From positions 44,012-108,011 of the IMG/VR virus record IMGVR_UViG_3300047548_000827: a DNA stretch of 64,000 nt; one strand, 5' to 3'. Under the pieces are notes generated by a model, which saw only the letters and a list, made by a program, of their open reading frames with translations, was not told the DNA's origin and did no database searches. Shown here one piece after another: positions 1,481 to 44,800 of the stretch (positions are counted from its first letter, which is position 1; the number at the start of each line of letters is the position of its first letter). Source of the DNA: a virus. The position numbers were made by a program, and so were the translations under genes.

Positions 1481-3796
1481 ATGCCTATACATGTATTAAA
1501 AAGATCAGGTAATAAAGAACCACTTACTATTGAAAAATGGCAGACGCAGATCGCTAAGGTTTGTAAGGGAATCTCAGAGGTAAGCCAAAGTATGATTGAA
1601 ATTAAAGCTCAACCTCATTTTTACGATGGTATCAGTACTAGAGAAATTGATGAAATTACTCTAAGAGCAATTGTAGACTTGATCGATGTAGAAACTAATC
1701 CAGACGTAGGACATACTAACTATCAGTACGTTGCGGGAAAACAAAGACTTACAATGTTGCGTAAGGACGTATACGGGGATTACGAAGTTCCTCATATTTA
1801 CGAGATTGTAAAAACCAATGTTAAGGCAGGGTTGTATACTCCAGAACTTCTAGAGTGGTACACCGAAGAAGACTGGAATAAGATGGAGGACATGATCGAT
1901 CATTCTAAAGATGAAGAATATTCTTATGCTGCTATCGAACAACTAATCGAAAAATACCTAGTTAAGAATAGGGCAACAAATCAATCTTACGAAACACCTC
2001 AGATTCGATACATGGTGGCAGCGGCTACAGTTTTTCATAAGGAAGAACCCAACTCAGCTAGAATGCGTTACATAAAGGAATACTACAATGCTGCTTCAGA
2101 TGGTCTTTTTACCCTTGCAACTCCTGTGTTGGCTGGTCTTGGTACTCCTACTAAGCAGTTTAGCTCTTGTGTTCTCATCAGGTCTGATGATGATCTTGAT
2201 AGCATCTTCGCTAGTGGGGAAATGATGGCTAAGTATGCTAGCAAACGTGCTGGCATTGGTTTGGAGATTGGTCGTCTACGTCCCTTAGGTAGTCCCATTC
2301 GTGGTGGCGAAATCATGCACACGGGAATGGTTCCCTTCTTAAAGAAATGGTTCGGTGATCTGCGTTCATGCAGTCAAGGGGGAATTCGTAATGCGTCAGC
2401 TACTGTATTTTATCCGATTTGGCATCATCAATTTGATGACCTCATTGTTCTCAAGAACAACCAAGGAACAGAAGAAACACGGGTTAGACACATGGACTAC
2501 GGTGTCGTACTCTCGGCGTTCTTTTGGCGTAGGTTTAAGAACAAAGAAAATATTACATTCTTCGACCCGAATGAAGTACCCGACCTCTACGAAGCCTTCT
2601 ACAGCAACACCGAAGAATTCGAAAGACTCTACCTAAAGTACGAAAAGCAATCAGGTCTTCGTAAGAAGACAATGAGTGCTGAGGAAGTATTCAAAAGTGG
2701 CATTCTTAAAGAGCGTACTGATACTGGACGAATTTATCTTGTGTTCGTTGATAACGTAATGAACCAAGGTCCGTTCGATCCAGAGTATCATACAATTTAC
2801 CAGAGTAACCTTTGCTGTGAAATCCTATTACCGACTGTACCGTTTAAGCGTCTTGATGACAGCAATGGCCGCATTGCTTTGTGTACTTTGGGCAGCATCA
2901 ATTGGGGCGCATTCCGTAATCCTGAAGATATGCGCCGTGCTTGCCGTATTCTTCATCGTAGTCTTAACAATATTCTCGATTACCAAGACTTCTTGTCGAT
3001 CCAATCGAAACTAAGTAATGACGAAATTCGTCCTCTTGGTATTGGTGTTACTAATCTTGCATACTGGCATGCTAAACGTGGACTACAATATGGTGAAAAG
3101 GATGCTCTTGCAGAAGTTAAATCTTGGATTGAACATCAAGCCTACTATCTAACTGAAGCATCGGTTGAACTTGCTAAGGAAAGAGGCAAGTGCCTTGATA
3201 GTGATAAGACTAGGTATGGCAAAGGAGTTTTCCCTTGGGAGCTCCGTGCTAAAGGAGTCAATGAACTCGCTGACTTTACTCCTGAGTTAGATTGGGAACC
3301 TCTTCGAGAGCAGATGAAAAAATATGGAGTAAGAAACGCTACTCAAATGGCAATCGCACCAGTTGAATCAAGTTCAGTTGTAATTAACTCAACTAACGGT
3401 ATCGAGATGCCCATGAGTCTTATCTCCACTAAAGAAAGTAAAGCTGGCTCGTTTACTCAAGTAGTTCCCGAGTACCACAAGCTGAAAAACAAGTATCAGC
3501 TAATGTGGGAACAGAAAGACTGTGATGGATACCTTAAGACTGCTGCTGTATTGGCTGCGTATGTCGATCAAAGTATCAGCACCAATACTTTCTATAACCC
3601 TGCTAATTTCTCAGATAGAAAAGTTCCTACTACACTAATCGCTAAGAATCTAATGCAGGCTCATATGTGGGGGCTGAAAACTTTCTATTACAGCCTTATC
3701 AATAAAGCTGGATCAAAAGCAGTTGCAGAAGAAGCTCCGGCTATGTTAGAAGAAATTGACTTCGATGATTTAGACTGTGAGGCGTGTAAGTTGTAG
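1481..3796 (+). CDS. nrdA: Ribonucleoside-diphosphate reductase large subunit (class Ia)
   Basis: 771 residues, the usual size of NrdA. Reduces ribonucleoside diphosphates to deoxyribonucleotides using the radical made by NrdB. Visible parts: an N-terminal ATP-cone-like region (about 4-90), the active-site Cys in FSSCVLI near 230, the radical triad N443-C445-E447 in SNLCCEIL, and a C-terminal Cys pair (CEAC) for re-reduction by thioredoxin or glutaredoxin. No intron or insertion is seen. It heads a cluster with an Fe-S carrier and nrdB, supplying dNTPs for phage replication. Confidence 0.97.
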   Translation: MPIHVLKRSGNKEPLTIEKWQTQIAKVCKGISEVSQSMIEIKAQPHFYDGISTREIDEITLRAIVDLIDVETNPDVGHTNYQYVAGKQRLTMLRKDVYGDYEVPHIYEIVKTNVKAGLYTPELLEWYTEEDWNKMEDMIDHSKDEEYSYAAIEQLIEKYLVKNRATNQSYETPQIRYMVAAATVFHKEEPNSARMRYIKEYYNAASDGLFTLATPVLAGLGTPTKQFSSCVLIRSDDDLDSIFASGEMMAKYASKRAGIGLEIGRLRPLGSPIRGGEIMHTGMVPFLKKWFGDLRSCSQGGIRNASATVFYPIWHHQFDDLIVLKNNQGTEETRVRHMDYGVVLSAFFWRRFKNKENITFFDPNEVPDLYEAFYSNTEEFERLYLKYEKQSGLRKKTMSAEEVFKSGILKERTDTGRIYLVFVDNVMNQGPFDPEYHTIYQSNLCCEILLPTVPFKRLDDSNGRIALCTLGSINWGAFRNPEDMRRACRILHRSLNNILDYQDFLSIQSKLSNDEIRPLGIGVTNLAYWHAKRGLQYGEKDALAEVKSWIEHQAYYLTEASVELAKERGKCLDSDKTRYGKGVFPWELRAKGVNELADFTPELDWEPLREQMKKYGVRNATQMAIAPVESSSVVINSTNGIEMPMSLISTKESKAGSFTQVVPEYHKLKNKYQLMWEQKDCDGYLKTAAVLAAYVDQSISTNTFYNPANFSDRKVPTTLIAKNLMQAHMWGLKTFYYSLINKAGSKAVAEEAPAMLEEIDFDDLDCEACKL

Positions 3797-3820
3797 TATG
3801 CGGAACTTTTTAATTACAAT

Positions 3821-3850
3821 AAAAGAAACTATAATTGGTATGTTTCTTTT
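3821..3850 (+). repeat. Inverted repeat after nrdA, possible terminator or processing hairpin
   Basis: AAAAGAAAC (3821-3829) and GTTTCTTTT (3842-3850) are perfect 9-base arms around a 12-base loop that itself contains TATAAT. It lies between nrdA and the Fe-S carrier gene. No long T run follows, so termination may be weak. The TATAAT inside the loop echoes the promoter-in-hairpin layout seen elsewhere in the window. Confidence 0.5.
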
Positions 3851-3877
3851 AGCTAAAGTTTTACTTTTTAGGAAACA

Positions 3878-13969: not shown

Positions 13970-14037
13970 AAATGGAGTTTATGGTTGACATAAACTCCAT
14001 TTCCATGTATAATGTTTGTATTCTGAATAAGGAAATG
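13970..14037 (+). promoter_or_regulatory. Early promoter with two competing inverted repeats
   Basis: TTGACA (13985-13990), 17-base spacer, TATAAT (14008-14013). AAATGGAGTTTAT (13970-13982) is an exact 13-base complement of ATAAACTCCATTT (13990-14002). A second pair, CATTTCC (13998-14004) with GGAAATG (14031-14037), spans the -10 and covers the ribosome binding site of the ligase gene. The shared CATTT cannot pair both ways at once, so upstream pairing would free the site. Confidence 0.7.
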
Positions 14038-16819: not shown

Positions 16820-17199
16820 GTTATAATAGAGCAGCATTTTTTGGTCCAATGGATACAGTTCTTAAAATGCGATTGAAATTGTTAGAAGAGTTTGGTACGA
16901 TAGATACATTTTGGTGGAAGTTAGTACCTGGGGTAGAAATAGAAGTTAAATGGCCAAGGGGTGAGATAGTAATTGACGAATCAATGCCGCAATGGGATTG
17001 GACTGTAGGACCAAGTAAGTATATCGTAGAATCTGCTGACCCTAATGATCATTATCGCCCCGAACTGGAACGACTTGTAGGTACACAGAGATGGGATTGG
17101 GATTGGAAAATTAATCCAAACAATCTTGATAGACTTACAATAAAGTTTAGAAAGGGGAAAGCAAAGTATGCATCTTACTTTGCTTTGAAATGGACATGA
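16816..17199 (+). CDS. LRW-family small protein, member 7 (127 aa, long)
   Basis: Longest member. Tail KAKYASYFALKWT keeps F-x-L-K-W. The central part is Trp-rich and Pro/Asp-rich (QWDWTVGPSKYIVESADPND) and may hold an inserted segment or a fused second unit. ATGA coupling on both sides. Function unknown. Confidence 0.65.
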   Translation: MSYNRAAFFGPMDTVLKMRLKLLEEFGTIDTFWWKLVPGVEIEVKWPRGEIVIDESMPQWDWTVGPSKYIVESADPNDHYRPELERLVGTQRWDWDWKINPNNLDRLTIKFRKGKAKYASYFALKWT

Positions 17200-24330: not shown

Positions 24331-26478
24331 ATGATTCTGAATAACGCTCCCCAAGATCAAGCAGTTCTTTCCAACGTCGGCCAAATCGGCGAGTTTCGTA
24401 TTCGCAACTCCGCGAAGGCATTTAGTATTCTGTCTTCGGGGCTGTACGCAAACAAGATCCGCGCGATCATCCGTGAACTTTCCTGCAATGCGGTTGACTC
24501 GCACGTTGCAGCAGGCAAATCGGAAACCCCTTTCGATATTCATCTTCCGAATGCTCTTGAGCCTTGGTTCAGTATTCGTGACTACGGTACTGGGCTCGAT
24601 CACGCTCAAGTAACCAACATCTATACGACCTACTTCGAATCTACCAAAACGGAATCGAACGATTTTATCGGTGCGCTGGGTCTGGGTTCGAAGTCCCCGT
24701 TTTCGTATACTGACAATTTCACCGTGACTGCGATCAAGGATGGTCGCAAAGGTATCTACACCGCATTCATCAATGAACATGGTGTTCCGAGCATTGCCCT
24801 GATGTTCGAGGAAGAAACGACCGATCCGGCTGGTGTCGAGGTGAAGTTTTCGGTCAACGATAAGCATGACTACGAAAAGTTCAACCAAGAAGCGAGGAAC
24901 GTTTATGAATATTTCAAGCTGCGTCCGGTAGTCAGCGGTCGTTCGGATTTCAAGTTCAGTGATCCTCACTTTGAAGATCGTGACATCGTTCCTGGTGTTC
25001 ATACGCTGAAGGTTAATCGTGCTTATGATAGCATTAGTTTTGCTATCATGGGTAACATTGCGTATCCCGTGAATGTTCCGGAAGCTGACAAGACGCTAGG
25101 TACTCTTCGCCCGCTGCTTAAGTGTGGTCTGGTGATGGAGTTTGGTATCGGTGAACTGGATTTTCAGGCTTCGCGTGAAGGTCTCTCGTATGTTCCTCTG
25201 ACGATTGAATCGATTCAGAAAAAGCTGGTCGTTCTGAATGATCAACTGGTTAAGTACGTTGCGAAAGAAGCTGAAAAGATCGAGAATCTGTGGGAACGTG
25301 CAGTCTGGCTTGCTAAGAAGCGTGACTATACGCTTTGGCGTAACGCGGTCGATAAGTATGTTACGGATACGAAGTTTCCTCTTGCATCGGGTAGCACGAA
25401 TCGTTGGGAATTCCTGAACTCGTTTAAGTTCACTGTCGAAGAACTTCGTGAAAAGTACAACATCGTTATTCGAGGCTTTCAGAAGCAATCCGGATATCAG
25501 CATATGTCTACGCTGAAACCACGTAGTGTGCATAACTCCGTTTACGGTACTTTTAAGGAAACTTGGGAATTTACGATTGACCTGAACAAATCATTTGTCT
25601 TCAACGACACTAATGTCGGAGCACTTGAACGAGCCAAGCATCACTGGAAATCTGCGGATGACGTACACCATGCATCCGTCTATGTCATCGATGCATTTGT
25701 CAAAGGTAATCCTATCAAGAAGCAGGAATTCCTCGATGCACTGATGAACCCTCCTTCTAATATGTTTTTTAAAGCTAGCGAACTTGCTAAGAAGGACAGC
25801 AAGGCTCGTATTGGCAAAAATGTTTCGATTCTGAAGCTGGAAGAACGTCGTCGCAGTTCTTGGAATACTGAATGGGTCTGGGCTGCTGCTGGTAAGATTG
25901 ACAGTTTTTCTGACAGTGAAACCTTTTACTACGTCGAAATGTCTGCGTGGGAGCCCCTCGATATTCCAGTCGATATCAAAACTCTCCGTCTCCGACTTTA
26001 TGAATCGGATGTGTTTAAAGGTTCGATCTACGGAGTTCGTAAGTCTGATATCGAAGAAGTTCGTAGTCGTAAAAATTGGGTCAGCCTGAACGAGATGATC
26101 AAGTCCTCGCTTGGTAAGTTGGATACTTCTAATGTGATGGGAATGGTCAAACAATCGGTTGACATCAAGGCACTTTACAAGTATATTAACGTTATCAACA
26201 AAGTTGATCAAAATAGTCCGTATGTCAAACTGTACAATGTTTTTAAGGATGTTAAAGATGACAGCCCGGTGAAACGTCAAGCACTAGAGTTTCTCTGCAA
26301 GAAATATGGAATCACAACTGCTGCAAAAGTTGATCCGAATGCATTGATTGCTAAGTACAATGGAGAAGTTGCAGCGATTTATATTCGATATCCCCTGCTT
26401 CGCAGCCTGAGCCACACGGTCGATTCTCAAGCTGTTGCTGAATACATTAACCTCATCGATCAAAACAAAGGAATTTAA
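24331..26478 (+). CDS. rIIA: rIIA-like protein with GHKL ATPase domain
   Basis: 715 residues (T4 rIIA about 725). GHKL motifs in the N-terminal third: RELSCNAVDSHVAAGK (N box), DYGTGLD (G1) and GALGLGSKSPFSYTDNF (G2). rII proteins act at the inner membrane and protect T4 in lambda lysogens (RexAB exclusion). The rIIB gene should follow directly, but an HNH endonuclease has been inserted. GC-rich codons for most of its length. Confidence 0.88.
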   Translation: MILNNAPQDQAVLSNVGQIGEFRIRNSAKAFSILSSGLYANKIRAIIRELSCNAVDSHVAAGKSETPFDIHLPNALEPWFSIRDYGTGLDHAQVTNIYTTYFESTKTESNDFIGALGLGSKSPFSYTDNFTVTAIKDGRKGIYTAFINEHGVPSIALMFEEETTDPAGVEVKFSVNDKHDYEKFNQEARNVYEYFKLRPVVSGRSDFKFSDPHFEDRDIVPGVHTLKVNRAYDSISFAIMGNIAYPVNVPEADKTLGTLRPLLKCGLVMEFGIGELDFQASREGLSYVPLTIESIQKKLVVLNDQLVKYVAKEAEKIENLWERAVWLAKKRDYTLWRNAVDKYVTDTKFPLASGSTNRWEFLNSFKFTVEELREKYNIVIRGFQKQSGYQHMSTLKPRSVHNSVYGTFKETWEFTIDLNKSFVFNDTNVGALERAKHHWKSADDVHHASVYVIDAFVKGNPIKKQEFLDALMNPPSNMFFKASELAKKDSKARIGKNVSILKLEERRRSSWNTEWVWAAAGKIDSFSDSETFYYVEMSAWEPLDIPVDIKTLRLRLYESDVFKGSIYGVRKSDIEEVRSRKNWVSLNEMIKSSLGKLDTSNVMGMVKQSVDIKALYKYINVINKVDQNSPYVKLYNVFKDVKDDSPVKRQALEFLCKKYGITTAAKVDPNALIAKYNGEVAAIYIRYPLLRSLSHTVDSQAVAEYINLIDQNKGI

Positions 26479-26479
26479 A

Positions 26480-26515
26480 ATGAGCTACCCCTATCTGATT
26501 CAAGGAAAGGTATAA
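26480..26515 (+). pseudogene. Truncated 5' copy of rIIB (11 codons)
   Basis: Frame MSYPYLIQGKV then stop, starting one base after the rIIA stop and with AAAGGA upstream, the natural position for rIIB. Its YLIQG matches YLIQG of the full rIIB at 27344, and CCTATCTGATTCAAGG agrees with CCTATCTTATTCAAGG at 15 of 16 bases. The remaining gene was cut off by insertion of the HNH gene. Confidence 0.75.
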
Positions 26516-26538
26516 ATACTAGTACGAGGTACTAGTAT
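26511..26538 (+). promoter_or_regulatory. Consensus late promoter overlapping a hairpin that hides the HNH start
   Basis: TATAAATA (26511-26518) is a perfect T4 late box; predicted start near 26524. ATACTAGTAC (26516-26525) pairs with GTACTAGTAT (26529-26538) around a GAG loop, covering the GAGG ribosome binding site (26526-26529) and two bases of the ATG. Late RNA begins inside the hairpin and loses most of the first arm. This is the same logic as T4 I-TevI control. Confidence 0.85.
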
Positions 26539-27271
26539 GAATTATCAAAAAATATACGACACGCTTATAGCAAGAGCTATCGGTAGGAAAAAAATGAATA
26601 AACATGATCCTGGTTATGTTTATTATGAACGACATCATATTGTTCCTAAATGCTTAGGCGGCACCGATTCTACTTTAAATTTGGTTTATCTGACAGCAGA
26701 AGAACATTGGATTGCTCATTTATTACTAGTAAAGTTGAATCCCGAAAACAATAAATTAGTGTATGCTTGCCAAGCAATGTCGATGTCTGGTGGGAACAAT
26801 AAGAGAACTACAAATAAGTTATTTGGATGGATCAGGAGAAAGTACAGTAATGCCACTAGTGAGCGGCAAAAGGGCCGCGTTGTAACGCAGGAACAAAGAC
26901 TTAAAATAAGCTCATCACTAATAGGTAGGCCGGCTCTTCATCAACAAGGCAATAATAACATATCAAAAAGACCTGAGGTTGCCAAAAAAATAAGCGAGTC
27001 AAATAAGGGCAGGAAGCAGAATTTCTCGAACCCTGAATTGCGATTAAAAAGAATAAGTGAGGCTAAGAAAGGAAAACCTCACTTATCAGGAGAATCAAAC
27101 CCTGCATTTAAAGGATGGATTATAGGTACTCCAGTAGAAGGTGGACCTGAGATAAGAATATCATCCAAAAAAGACATGGATTTTTATGGGTTTACCAAAA
27201 CATCAGTATATAAGTGCGTAAACGGCATTAACCATCAACACAAGGGTTACAAATTTAGAAGAGAAGAATAG
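26537..27271 (+). CDS. HNH homing endonuclease with NUMOD3 repeats
   Basis: 244 residues. HNH core near 30-65: YERHHIVPKCLGG, then NLVYLTAEEHWIAHLLL. Residues about 110-200 hold NUMOD3-type DNA-binding repeats (ISSSLIGRPALHQQ, ISESNKGRKQNFSN, SEAKKGKPHLSGES). It is free-standing between rIIA and rIIB, lower in GC than both neighbours, and under a late promoter while its hosts are early genes. A mobile element likely homing into rIIA-rIIB. Confidence 0.9.
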   Translation: MNYQKIYDTLIARAIGRKKMNKHDPGYVYYERHHIVPKCLGGTDSTLNLVYLTAEEHWIAHLLLVKLNPENNKLVYACQAMSMSGGNNKRTTNKLFGWIRRKYSNATSERQKGRVVTQEQRLKISSSLIGRPALHQQGNNNISKRPEVAKKISESNKGRKQNFSNPELRLKRISEAKKGKPHLSGESNPAFKGWIIGTPVEGGPEIRISSKKDMDFYGFTKTSVYKCVNGINHQHKGYKFRREE

Positions 27272-27282
27272 CCCAAAAAGCA

Positions 27283-27311
27283 TTGATATTTGCGACATTT
27301 TCAGTTAAAAT
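27283..27311 (+). promoter_or_regulatory. Promoter restoring rIIB expression downstream of the HNH gene
   Basis: TTGATA (27283-27288), 17-base spacer, TAAAAT (27306-27311), start near 27318, before the rIIB ATG at 27344. It lets rIIB be made although the insertion separates it from the rIIA transcript. Confidence 0.6.
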
Positions 27312-27343
27312 CAACTTTCGTTAATTACACTAAAAGGAACATC

Positions 27344-28318
27344 ATGAATTCGACTCCGGCCTATCTTATTCAAGGTAACAACATTACCGTTGTCATCGAC
27401 AACAAACCCTACACGATCTCCAAGACTCATATCACCTACAATAAGGTTCTTGAGGCAATCAAAGCAGGTGACTGGGAAGCAGTCAAAGATGCGATTGAAC
27501 CTAAGAAAATTTTCTACAAGTTTTCTAATGGTGTGGTCAAAATCGAAGACGGCCAGTTCTTCTGGAAAGGTCAACTCATGCATAATGCGCTGACCACTCG
27601 TATGATTGAAATGCTGAAGGAAGATTTTCCGATTGACCCGCTCATCAATTTTATGAGCAACCTGATGTCGAATCCCAGCAAGCGTTCAGTCGATGAACTG
27701 TATGGCTTTCTGGAGAAGAACAACCTTCCGATTACTCCCGATGGACACTTCCTTGCTTACAAGCGTGTTCGTAATGACTACAAAGATTGTCACTCGGGTA
27801 CGATGGATAACAGCATCGGTAGTATTGTCGAGATGGAACGCAATCAAGTCGATGATGACAAAGATCGCACTTGCAGCACTGGTCTGCACTTCTGCTCGCA
27901 TGAGTATCTGAAGAGTTTTGGTGGCGAACGCACGGTGATTCTGAAGATCAATCCTCGTGATGTTGTCAGCATTCCGTCTGACTATAACGATAGCAAAGGT
28001 CGCTGCTGCCGTTATGAAGTTATCGGTGAGGTTGATCACACTCCGGATGAGTCTGTTGAATTCAACAAGCCTGTGCAGTCGAACGCTAACTCGGTAAAAT
28101 CTGAAAGACCCAAAAAGGGAGACTCTGAATTTTATCGTGGGTATTCAGAAGGATATGACGACCTAGACTTTGACGAAACTGTGTGGGATGATGAGGATGC
28201 GGATGAGTATGAAGATGGATTCAACCAAGGGTGTGATGATAGGCTTGCAGGAAATCCTGCACGATACGAATTCGATGACTTTTCTGATGGATTTGAGTTT
28301 CCTACCCGCATGCCTTAA
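27344..28318 (+). CDS. rIIB: rIIB-like protein
   Basis: 324 residues from ATG 27344 with AAAAGGAAC upstream; the frame extends back to 27290 but crosses the promoter. The N-terminus VIDNKPYTISKTHITYNKVL then EAIKAGDWEAV is the typical rIIB start; residues about 125-260 contain the conserved GHFLAYKRVRNDYKDCHSG and GLHFCSHEYL. The C-terminal 70 residues are very acidic, ending in a Gly/Asp tail. Partner of rIIA at the membrane. Confidence 0.85.
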   Translation: MNSTPAYLIQGNNITVVIDNKPYTISKTHITYNKVLEAIKAGDWEAVKDAIEPKKIFYKFSNGVVKIEDGQFFWKGQLMHNALTTRMIEMLKEDFPIDPLINFMSNLMSNPSKRSVDELYGFLEKNNLPITPDGHFLAYKRVRNDYKDCHSGTMDNSIGSIVEMERNQVDDDKDRTCSTGLHFCSHEYLKSFGGERTVILKINPRDVVSIPSDYNDSKGRCCRYEVIGEVDHTPDESVEFNKPVQSNANSVKSERPKKGDSEFYRGYSEGYDDLDFDETVWDDEDADEYEDGFNQGCDDRLAGNPARYEFDDFSDGFEFPTRMP

Positions 28319-28340: not shown

Positions 28341-28369
28341 TTGACATTAAATAAACTCGGTGCTATAAT
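28341..28369 (+). promoter_or_regulatory. Early sigma70 promoter
   Basis: TTGACA (28341-28346), 17-base spacer, TATAAT (28364-28369). CTATAAT (28363-28369) and ATTATAG (28373-28379) form a small inverted repeat over the start region. Start near 28376. Confidence 0.8.
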
Positions 28370-28399
28370 AGCATTATAGTGAATCAAACGGAGCGTCAG

Positions 28400-28738
28400 A
28401 TGGAAAAAGAACTGAATCAGTATCTGGAAGCGATTCGTAATGACTATCGTGCGTGGCAGTCGCGGTGCAACGTTGGCACTGGTCTTGACATTGACCGCAA
28501 GATCCGTGACAAGATGACCGAAGAATTCTGCGAGAGCCTCTCCTTCAAGGAAGGTGGCAAGTACATCAAGGTCATCCGCGAGTCCAGCGTTCACTCGTTC
28601 ATCGTCAAGGAAGACGGTGGCAAGTTCAAAAAAGGTGACATTCTCAAGGCTGCTTCTTGGAATGCTCCTGCCCGCAACTTCGCCCGCGGGAACATTCTGA
28701 AGGGCGGTTACAAAATTTCTTGGACTGGTGCAGTCTAA
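28400..28738 (+). CDS. Hypothetical protein, 112 aa
   Basis: GGAG 6 bases before ATG 28400 sets the start; the GTG at 28379 is at the transcription start. MEKELNQYLEAIRNDYRAWQ, a helix, then a basic beta-rich part ending ILKGGYKISWTGAV. Very GC-rich codons. Resembles small early proteins in other large phages; function unknown. Confidence 0.6.
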   Translation: MEKELNQYLEAIRNDYRAWQSRCNVGTGLDIDRKIRDKMTEEFCESLSFKEGGKYIKVIRESSVHSFIVKEDGGKFKKGDILKAASWNAPARNFARGNILKGGYKISWTGAV

Positions 28739-43828: not shown

Positions 43829-44800
43829 ATGGCTACATTAGCAGAAATCCGCGCTCGTATTGCAGCGCAAGAAACCAAAACACAACAAAAATCATCTGGT
43901 CCAAGTGACAACGCAATTTATCCTTTCTGGAATATCGAAGAAGGCAAAACTGCGAAACTCCGTTTTCTCCCAGATGGAAACTCAAGTAATACTTTCTTTT
44001 GGGTAGAACGTCAGATTATCAAGCTTCAGTTCAATGGAGTTGAGGGGAACCCAAATTTCAAACAAGTTACTGTGCAAGTTCCTTGTGTAGAAATGTACGG
44101 TGAAAATTGCCCTGTTCTAGCTGAAGTTCGTCCTTGGTATAAAGACGAAACACTAAAAGAACAAGCAAACAAGTATTGGAAAAAGCGGTCTTACATCTTC
44201 CAAGGATTTGTTCGACAAAATCCTCTAGAAGATGACAAGACTCCGGAGAATCCAATTCGAAGATTTGTCATTAGCCCACAGCTAATCCCAATCATTAAAG
44301 CTGGACTTATGGATCCCGAAATCCTTGAGCTACCTACTGATTATCTTCGTGGTCTTGATTTTAACATCAATAAGACAAGCAAAGGTGGATATGCTGACTA
44401 CAGTACTAGTAACTGGAGTCGCCGAGAGTCTCCGCTGACTGAAGTCGAACAAGCAGCAATTGAGACATATGGTCTCAGTAATTTGGCTGACTTTCTTCCA
44501 AAGAAGCCGAGTGAAACTGAACTCCGTATTATCAAGGAAATGTTTGAAGCTTCAGTTGAAGGTCGCCCATATGATCCAAACAAATGGGGAGCATATTACA
44601 AGCCATACGGACTTGATATTGGCCCTTCGACTCCCAAGTCAGAAAACAATAAAGTAGAAGAAAGCTCTCCTGTTGTGGAAGACGAAGTTGAGGAACTAGA
44701 AACTTCATCTCCAGTCGTCATTCCAAAGAAAACTGGAGCAGACAATGACAAAGCAAAAGATATTTTGGCTTTGATCAGGGCTAGACAAGCAAAGAGCTAA
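43829..44800 (+). CDS. 32: Single-stranded DNA-binding protein (gp32-like)
   Basis: 323 residues. N-terminal basic/Gln-rich B-like segment (LAEIRARIAAQETKTQQ), OB-fold core (YPFWNIEEGKTAKLRFLPDG, RSYIFQGFV, RRFVISPQLIPII) and an acidic C-terminal tail (VVEDEVEELETSS) for protein contacts. Coats ssDNA in replication and recombination. Placed before uvsX, uvsY-like and uvsW genes. The Zn ligands of T4 gp32 are not obvious. AAGGAG precedes the ATG. Confidence 0.92.
   Translation: MATLAEIRARIAAQETKTQQKSSGPSDNAIYPFWNIEEGKTAKLRFLPDGNSSNTFFWVERQIIKLQFNGVEGNPNFKQVTVQVPCVEMYGENCPVLAEVRPWYKDETLKEQANKYWKKRSYIFQGFVRQNPLEDDKTPENPIRRFVISPQLIPIIKAGLMDPEILELPTDYLRGLDFNINKTSKGGYADYSTSNWSRRESPLTEVEQAAIETYGLSNLADFLPKKPSETELRIIKEMFEASVEGRPYDPNKWGAYYKPYGLDIGPSTPKSENNKVEESSPVVEDEVEELETSSPVVIPKKTGADNDKAKDILALIRARQAKS

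Follow-up and report, generated by a model that had tools for sequence, protein, structure and literature searches.

We identified a free-standing HNH homing endonuclease gene at the junction between rIIA and rIIB in the genome of an uncultivated phage. The window analysed is a stretch of 64,000 nucleotides (positions 44,012 to 108,011 of IMG/VR record IMGVR_UViG_3300047548_000827). We consider it very probable that a homing gene inserted after codon 9 of rIIB, that the rIIB found downstream is of an old autonomous type, and that the endonuclease is under a late switch. The DNA itself shows the insertion, the relic of the interrupted gene, the motifs and the hairpin, that the phage uses the late promoter box, and that a promoter precedes rIIB (Table 1).

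Table 1. Features of the rIIA-rIIB junction, in window positions
Feature	Position	Strand	Basis
rIIA	24331..26478	+	PHROG 612 RIIA lysis inhibitor, E 4.5e-129
Relic with RBS: 9 first codons of ancestral rIIB plus 2 extra codons (MSYPYLIQGKV)	26480..26515	+	Spacing and peptide as in endonuclease-free relatives
16-nt stretch CCTATCTGATTCAAGG, upstream copy, within relic	26490..26505	+	15/16 match to rIIB copy
Putative T4-type late promoter box TATAAATA	26511..26518	+	ATAAATA enriched before genes; recurs in leaders of HNH relatives
Perfect 10-bp hairpin ATACTAGTAC-GAG-GTACTAGTAT	26516..26538	+	Fold z-score -5.4; pairing probabilities
Endonuclease Shine-Dalgarno GAGGT	26526..26530	+	Sequence
Predicted free-standing HNH homing endonuclease gene, 244 aa	26537..27271	+	PHROG 655 and conserved HNH residues
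rIIB sigma70-like promoter TTGATA-17-TAAAAT	27283..27311	+	10/12 consensus match
rIIB RBS AAGGA	27334..27338	+	Sequence
Complete rIIB, 324 aa, start MNSTPAYLIQG	27344..28318	+	PHROG 609 RIIB, E 8.2e-83; alignment
16-nt stretch CCTATCTTATTCAAGG, downstream copy, within rIIB	27360..27375	+	15/16 match to relic copy

The relic of a coupled rIIB

The original prediction described an 11-codon frame with a ribosome binding site one base after rIIA, and this frame is present, with AAAGGA upstream of its ATG. Three scans of viral contigs for rIIB gave 119 distinct loci with rIIA present. In 96 of these, rIIB starts at most 2 nt past the rIIA stop codon or overlaps it (the gap is exactly 1 nt in 78 of the 96), and endonuclease-free relatives have a continuous site without insert at 96 of the 119 junctions. 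The spacing implies that translation of rIIB would be coupled to that of rIIA in this phage group. Coupled relatives commonly begin rIIB with M(S/A)(Y/F)P, as in MSYPFLIQG, MSYPYLIQG, MSFPYIVQG and MAYPYLIQG, and in the junction comparison the context of the relic, AAAGGA...TTTAAAATG, is also found at full-length rIIB starts. No endonuclease-free relative carries a separate short frame; what stands there is the start of a full-length rIIB. Because its peptide, position and spacing equal those of the rIIB start in such relatives, the frame is not a chance one, and these comparisons identify it as the genuine front of an ancestral rIIB, broken after codon 9 (Gly). The HNH gene, correctly placed at the rIIA-rIIB junction by the original prediction, thus sits inside the 5' end of a translationally coupled rIIB.

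The endonuclease and its leader

Residues 1-197 of the HNH protein match the homing endonucleases of PHROG 655 (E 1.8e-52), and the catalytic residues HH33-34, N48, H57 and H61 are intact in an alignment with 19 relatives. At the C-terminus, the matches to DNA-binding motifs of NUMOD type score below the Pfam cut-offs (I-HmuI_NUMOD-like, 17.8 bits against a cut-off of 27; NUMOD3, 16.6 bits against 20.4). The protein is approximately 40% identical to phage free-standing endonucleases annotated as F-LimI or homing endonuclease. With F-LimI and the other free-standing HNH proteins of PHROG 655 from T4-like and Limestone-like phages, this identity extends over the first 190 residues and includes a common MNYQKIYD start and the HH-N-H motif; the insertion site of those genes, however, lies elsewhere than the rIIA-rIIB junction. 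The protein is probably an active nuclease, and the gene would be capable of homing.

An intron or a translational bypass could in principle remove or skip the segment and join MSYPYLIQG to NNITVV, and a join at the sequence repeated in the relic and rIIB would give back an ancestral-like rIIB. We consider this extremely improbable, as Rfam gave no match to a group I or group II intron even at E 5, and a complete rIIB, with an RBS and a promoter of its own, lies downstream. The gene therefore lies outside any intron or intein.

The late promoter box before the endonuclease overlaps the relic stop codon (TAA, 26513-26515). When genes were called as a simple longest-ORF set, no other 7-mer was as strongly enriched 7-60 nt before the genes of this phage as its core ATAAATA: 17 of its 31 copies fall in that interval, compared with 3.9% of all positions. 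In a relative the count is 19 of 37. Over whole genomes, the full T4-type TATAAATA is not enriched relative to the reversed pattern, and only the shorter ATAAATA before genes is enriched. Leaders of HNH relatives also contain the pattern [TG]ATAAATA: after deduplication it was present in 10 of 36 (0.8 expected; at most 4 in 500 shuffles), and several of these leaders fold as hairpins too. A gp55 late sigma was not found in the phage's own incomplete 108-kb record; homologues of this type are present in contigs of three relatives (L003, L013 and L082). The motif statistics point to ATAAATA(C) as a late promoter of T4 type in this group of uncultivated phages. In the whole record and in one relative (G007), no motif 7-60 nt before genes was stronger than ATAAATA(C).

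The hairpin encloses part of the Shine-Dalgarno sequence and the AU of the endonuclease AUG, and of the 458 candidate starts in the window, only 4 have a perfect stem of at least 9 bp. T4 promoter spacing, which we take to apply here, puts the first base of the late RNA near 26524, and of the 10 bases in the left arm such an RNA would keep 2. The fold model gives the two AUG bases of the stem an unpaired probability of 0.02-0.05 in read-through RNA and of 0.22-0.40 when the RNA starts at 26524, so that the predicted exposure of the AUG is only partial; for the paired Shine-Dalgarno bases the value rises from about 0.01 to about 0.45. The hairpin is thus predicted to sequester the RBS and AUG of the endonuclease on early read-through RNA from rIIA, and the late box is placed such that late transcription would drop the 5' arm. 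Because late RNA would begin inside the left arm, the hairpin could not form on it and the endonuclease would be translated.

Perfect 11-bp inverted repeats also occur elsewhere in the window, just upstream of the frames at 14005 and 17190 (13972-14005, with TTGACA between the arms, and 17158-17190).

A published expression logic of hairpin and late promoter has been described for Aeh1 mobE, I-TevI and segB (PMC2988022, PMC3014915). By analogy with these systems, the leader analysed here probably acts as a late switch of the I-TevI/mobE type, with late timing of the endonuclease. In the leader of I-TevI, from the T4 td intron, the late promoter likewise lies in a hairpin's 5' arm, and on early RNA this hairpin hides the RBS and start codon. 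I-TevI, however, is a GIY-YIG enzyme in a self-splicing intron, whereas the gene studied here encodes an HNH enzyme, has no intron, and is preceded by a translated rIIB relic that ends at the hairpin foot. The exact leader sequence, sought elsewhere, gave a single match, coding and unrelated, and a pattern scan for further relics followed by a late box gave no match. Nor were close-to-identical phages found in the phage collection.

Origin of the downstream rIIB and persistence of the relic

As originally predicted, the complete downstream rIIB has a different start and its own promoter, and the relic matches the rIIB start at 15 of 16 bases; the single mismatch is CTG versus CTT, Leu in both. 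The original prediction took this as a duplicated rIIB start, and one could propose that the HNH insertion itself produced a target-site duplication of which the 16 bases are the footprint. The two direct copies, 870 nt apart and both read as YLIQG, would fit such an event. The copies are alike only in conserved codons, however: the RBS, the ATG context and the first codons are wholly different, and the new start region, comprising RBS, ATG and five codons, was not copied from the relic. Furthermore, the rIIB starts of six other phages (L003, L097, L107, L109, L132 and L145) match the relic equally well, at 15 of 17 bases. Since rIIB starts of different phages resemble one another just as closely, the 16-base match shows homology to rIIB without showing a recent duplication; it is ordinary codon conservation of PYLIQG and in itself says nothing about mechanism. 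The 16 bases may be the cut site, as the original prediction suggested.

The downstream start type is also found in the L075 phage, which lacks the HNH gene, belongs to the same rIIA and rIIB clade, and has an rIIB starting with MNSAPAYIIQG under its own promoter. Nearly every synonymous position of this region differs from the MNSTPAY region of the window, so the MNSxPAY start type is old. MNSTPAYLIQG is therefore an old autonomous allele type and no copy of the relic start, and we regard duplication of the start by the insertion as distinctly unlikely. In L075, a gene of 145 aa that weakly matches PGDYG (3416-3853) overlaps the rIIA stop codon and parts rIIA from the autonomous rIIB.

We also considered that the downstream rIIB might have been imported from some distant phage, and rejected this: the window falls into one and the same clade in the trees of rIIA and of rIIB, so there is no conflict between the two genes.

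An old start behind a relic that has not decayed is most simply explained by recent recombination: a coupled recipient would have received the endonuclease along with the 5' end of an autonomous rIIB, as happens in homing with co-conversion. The endonuclease would cut rIIB-start alleles without the HNH gene, and repair would copy the gene plus the adjoining rIIB 5' end, inserting it after codon 9 of the coupled rIIB. The 11-codon relic would be left upstream, where ribosomes from rIIA could still enter it, and an autonomous rIIB of the older MNSxPAY type would stand downstream under its sigma70 promoter. Because this rIIB is complete and has its own promoter, rIIB function would survive.

A metagenome assembly chimera of two alleles could give a similar picture. 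The sequence is an IMG/VR-type viral contig, and no second copy of the exact arrangement of relic, HNH gene and rIIB was found among the contigs scanned. A false join would, however, require a long shared k-mer, and there is none, the repeat being 16 nt long with a mismatch. In addition, the relic runs directly into the endonuclease leader, the two rII genes belong to one clade, and analogous endonuclease insertions occur in independent contigs. We therefore judge an assembly artefact to be very improbable.

Alternatively, the relic may have escaped decay because selection kept it as a leader ORF. Its stop codon adjoins the foot of the hairpin, whose left arm starts at 26516, which makes the coupling through relic translation suggested in the original prediction geometrically possible. 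Ribosomes fed from rIIA onto this stop codon might open the hairpin early and weaken repression. The folding results lend little to this part of the prediction: when the left arm was masked in the fold model, as by a terminating ribosome, the AUG was not clearly freed. That the relic now works as a leader ORF through which rIIA translation tunes the early yield of endonuclease is a tentative and rather unlikely proposal.

Recurrent insertions at the rIIA-rIIB junction

We found GIY-YIG endonuclease genes, all antisense, at four other rIIA-rIIB junctions (L013, L074, L083 and L133; L085 is a near-duplicate of L083). These genes share with the HNH gene the insertion region, a late-type box (GATAAATA, 69-79 nt before their own starts) and a sigma70 promoter before rIIB, but they belong to an unrelated nuclease class, run antisense and have no rIIB relic. 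A sigma70 match of at least 10/12 precedes rIIB at 5 of 5 endonuclease-bearing junctions, 60-61 nt upstream of the ATG in all five, versus 8 of 96 coupled junctions. Junctions with small non-endonuclease inserts have no match at this level, L075 (9/12) being borderline. All autonomous rIIB genes have a sigma70-like promoter at -59 to -62; this position also fits the next gene in the window (28341 to 28400), and it is therefore probably ordinary early-promoter geometry. A special CCCAAAA promoter module was considered and set aside, as there were too few independent cases.

The L083 and L133 junctions (L083:1101-2000 and L133:2961-4130) share a right flank that is 95% identical over 319 nt and comprises the rIIB start, the promoter and its upstream region. 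Their GIY-YIG endonucleases differ, so one endonuclease was swapped for another at one site. Two further phages (L199 and L216) have a near-consensus sigma70 promoter about 84-85 nt before rIIB and no insert; they represent either the state before insertion or the scar left after endonuclease loss. Promoter gain and endonuclease insertion can thus be separate events. Taken across these contigs, the rIIA-rIIB junction is an endonuclease hotspot used by two unrelated nuclease classes.

Other small genes occur at these junctions. A promoterless gene of about 45 aa (MDIEKEAK... or MDIDKEVK...) lies between rIIA and rIIB in L102, L137, L143 and L145. A run of small genes, several of which start with MNERI(R/Q)EL and are apparently paralogous, lies between rIIA and the GIY-YIG gene in L074 (832-3077).

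The closest parallel to an insertion within a coding region is MobE in nrdA of Aeromonas phage Aeh1, likewise an HNH gene with an RBS hairpin and a late promoter, and both insertions are tolerated although they disrupt their host gene (PMC2988022, PMC3014915). In Aeh1, however, the two halves of nrdA are both required, and they assemble, whereas here the 5' piece consists of 11 codons only and a complete rIIB lies downstream. The endonuclease is thus of an ordinary kind, a known free-standing homing endonuclease with what we predict to be a classic late switch. What is unusual is its place at the rIIA-rIIB divide, the recurrence of endonucleases there and the preserved stump, which marks the exact point where the insertion joined. 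The divide between the two cistrons is the zero point, or origin, of the T4 map (PMC1524935). We found no description of an endonuclease between rIIA and rIIB in the literature searched, which leaves out most subscription journals. Two unrelated nuclease classes have come repeatedly to this divide, and rIIB has its own early promoter every time. Together, these junctions provide a natural series on the price that phages pay when a mobile gene breaks an operon, and on how they survive it.
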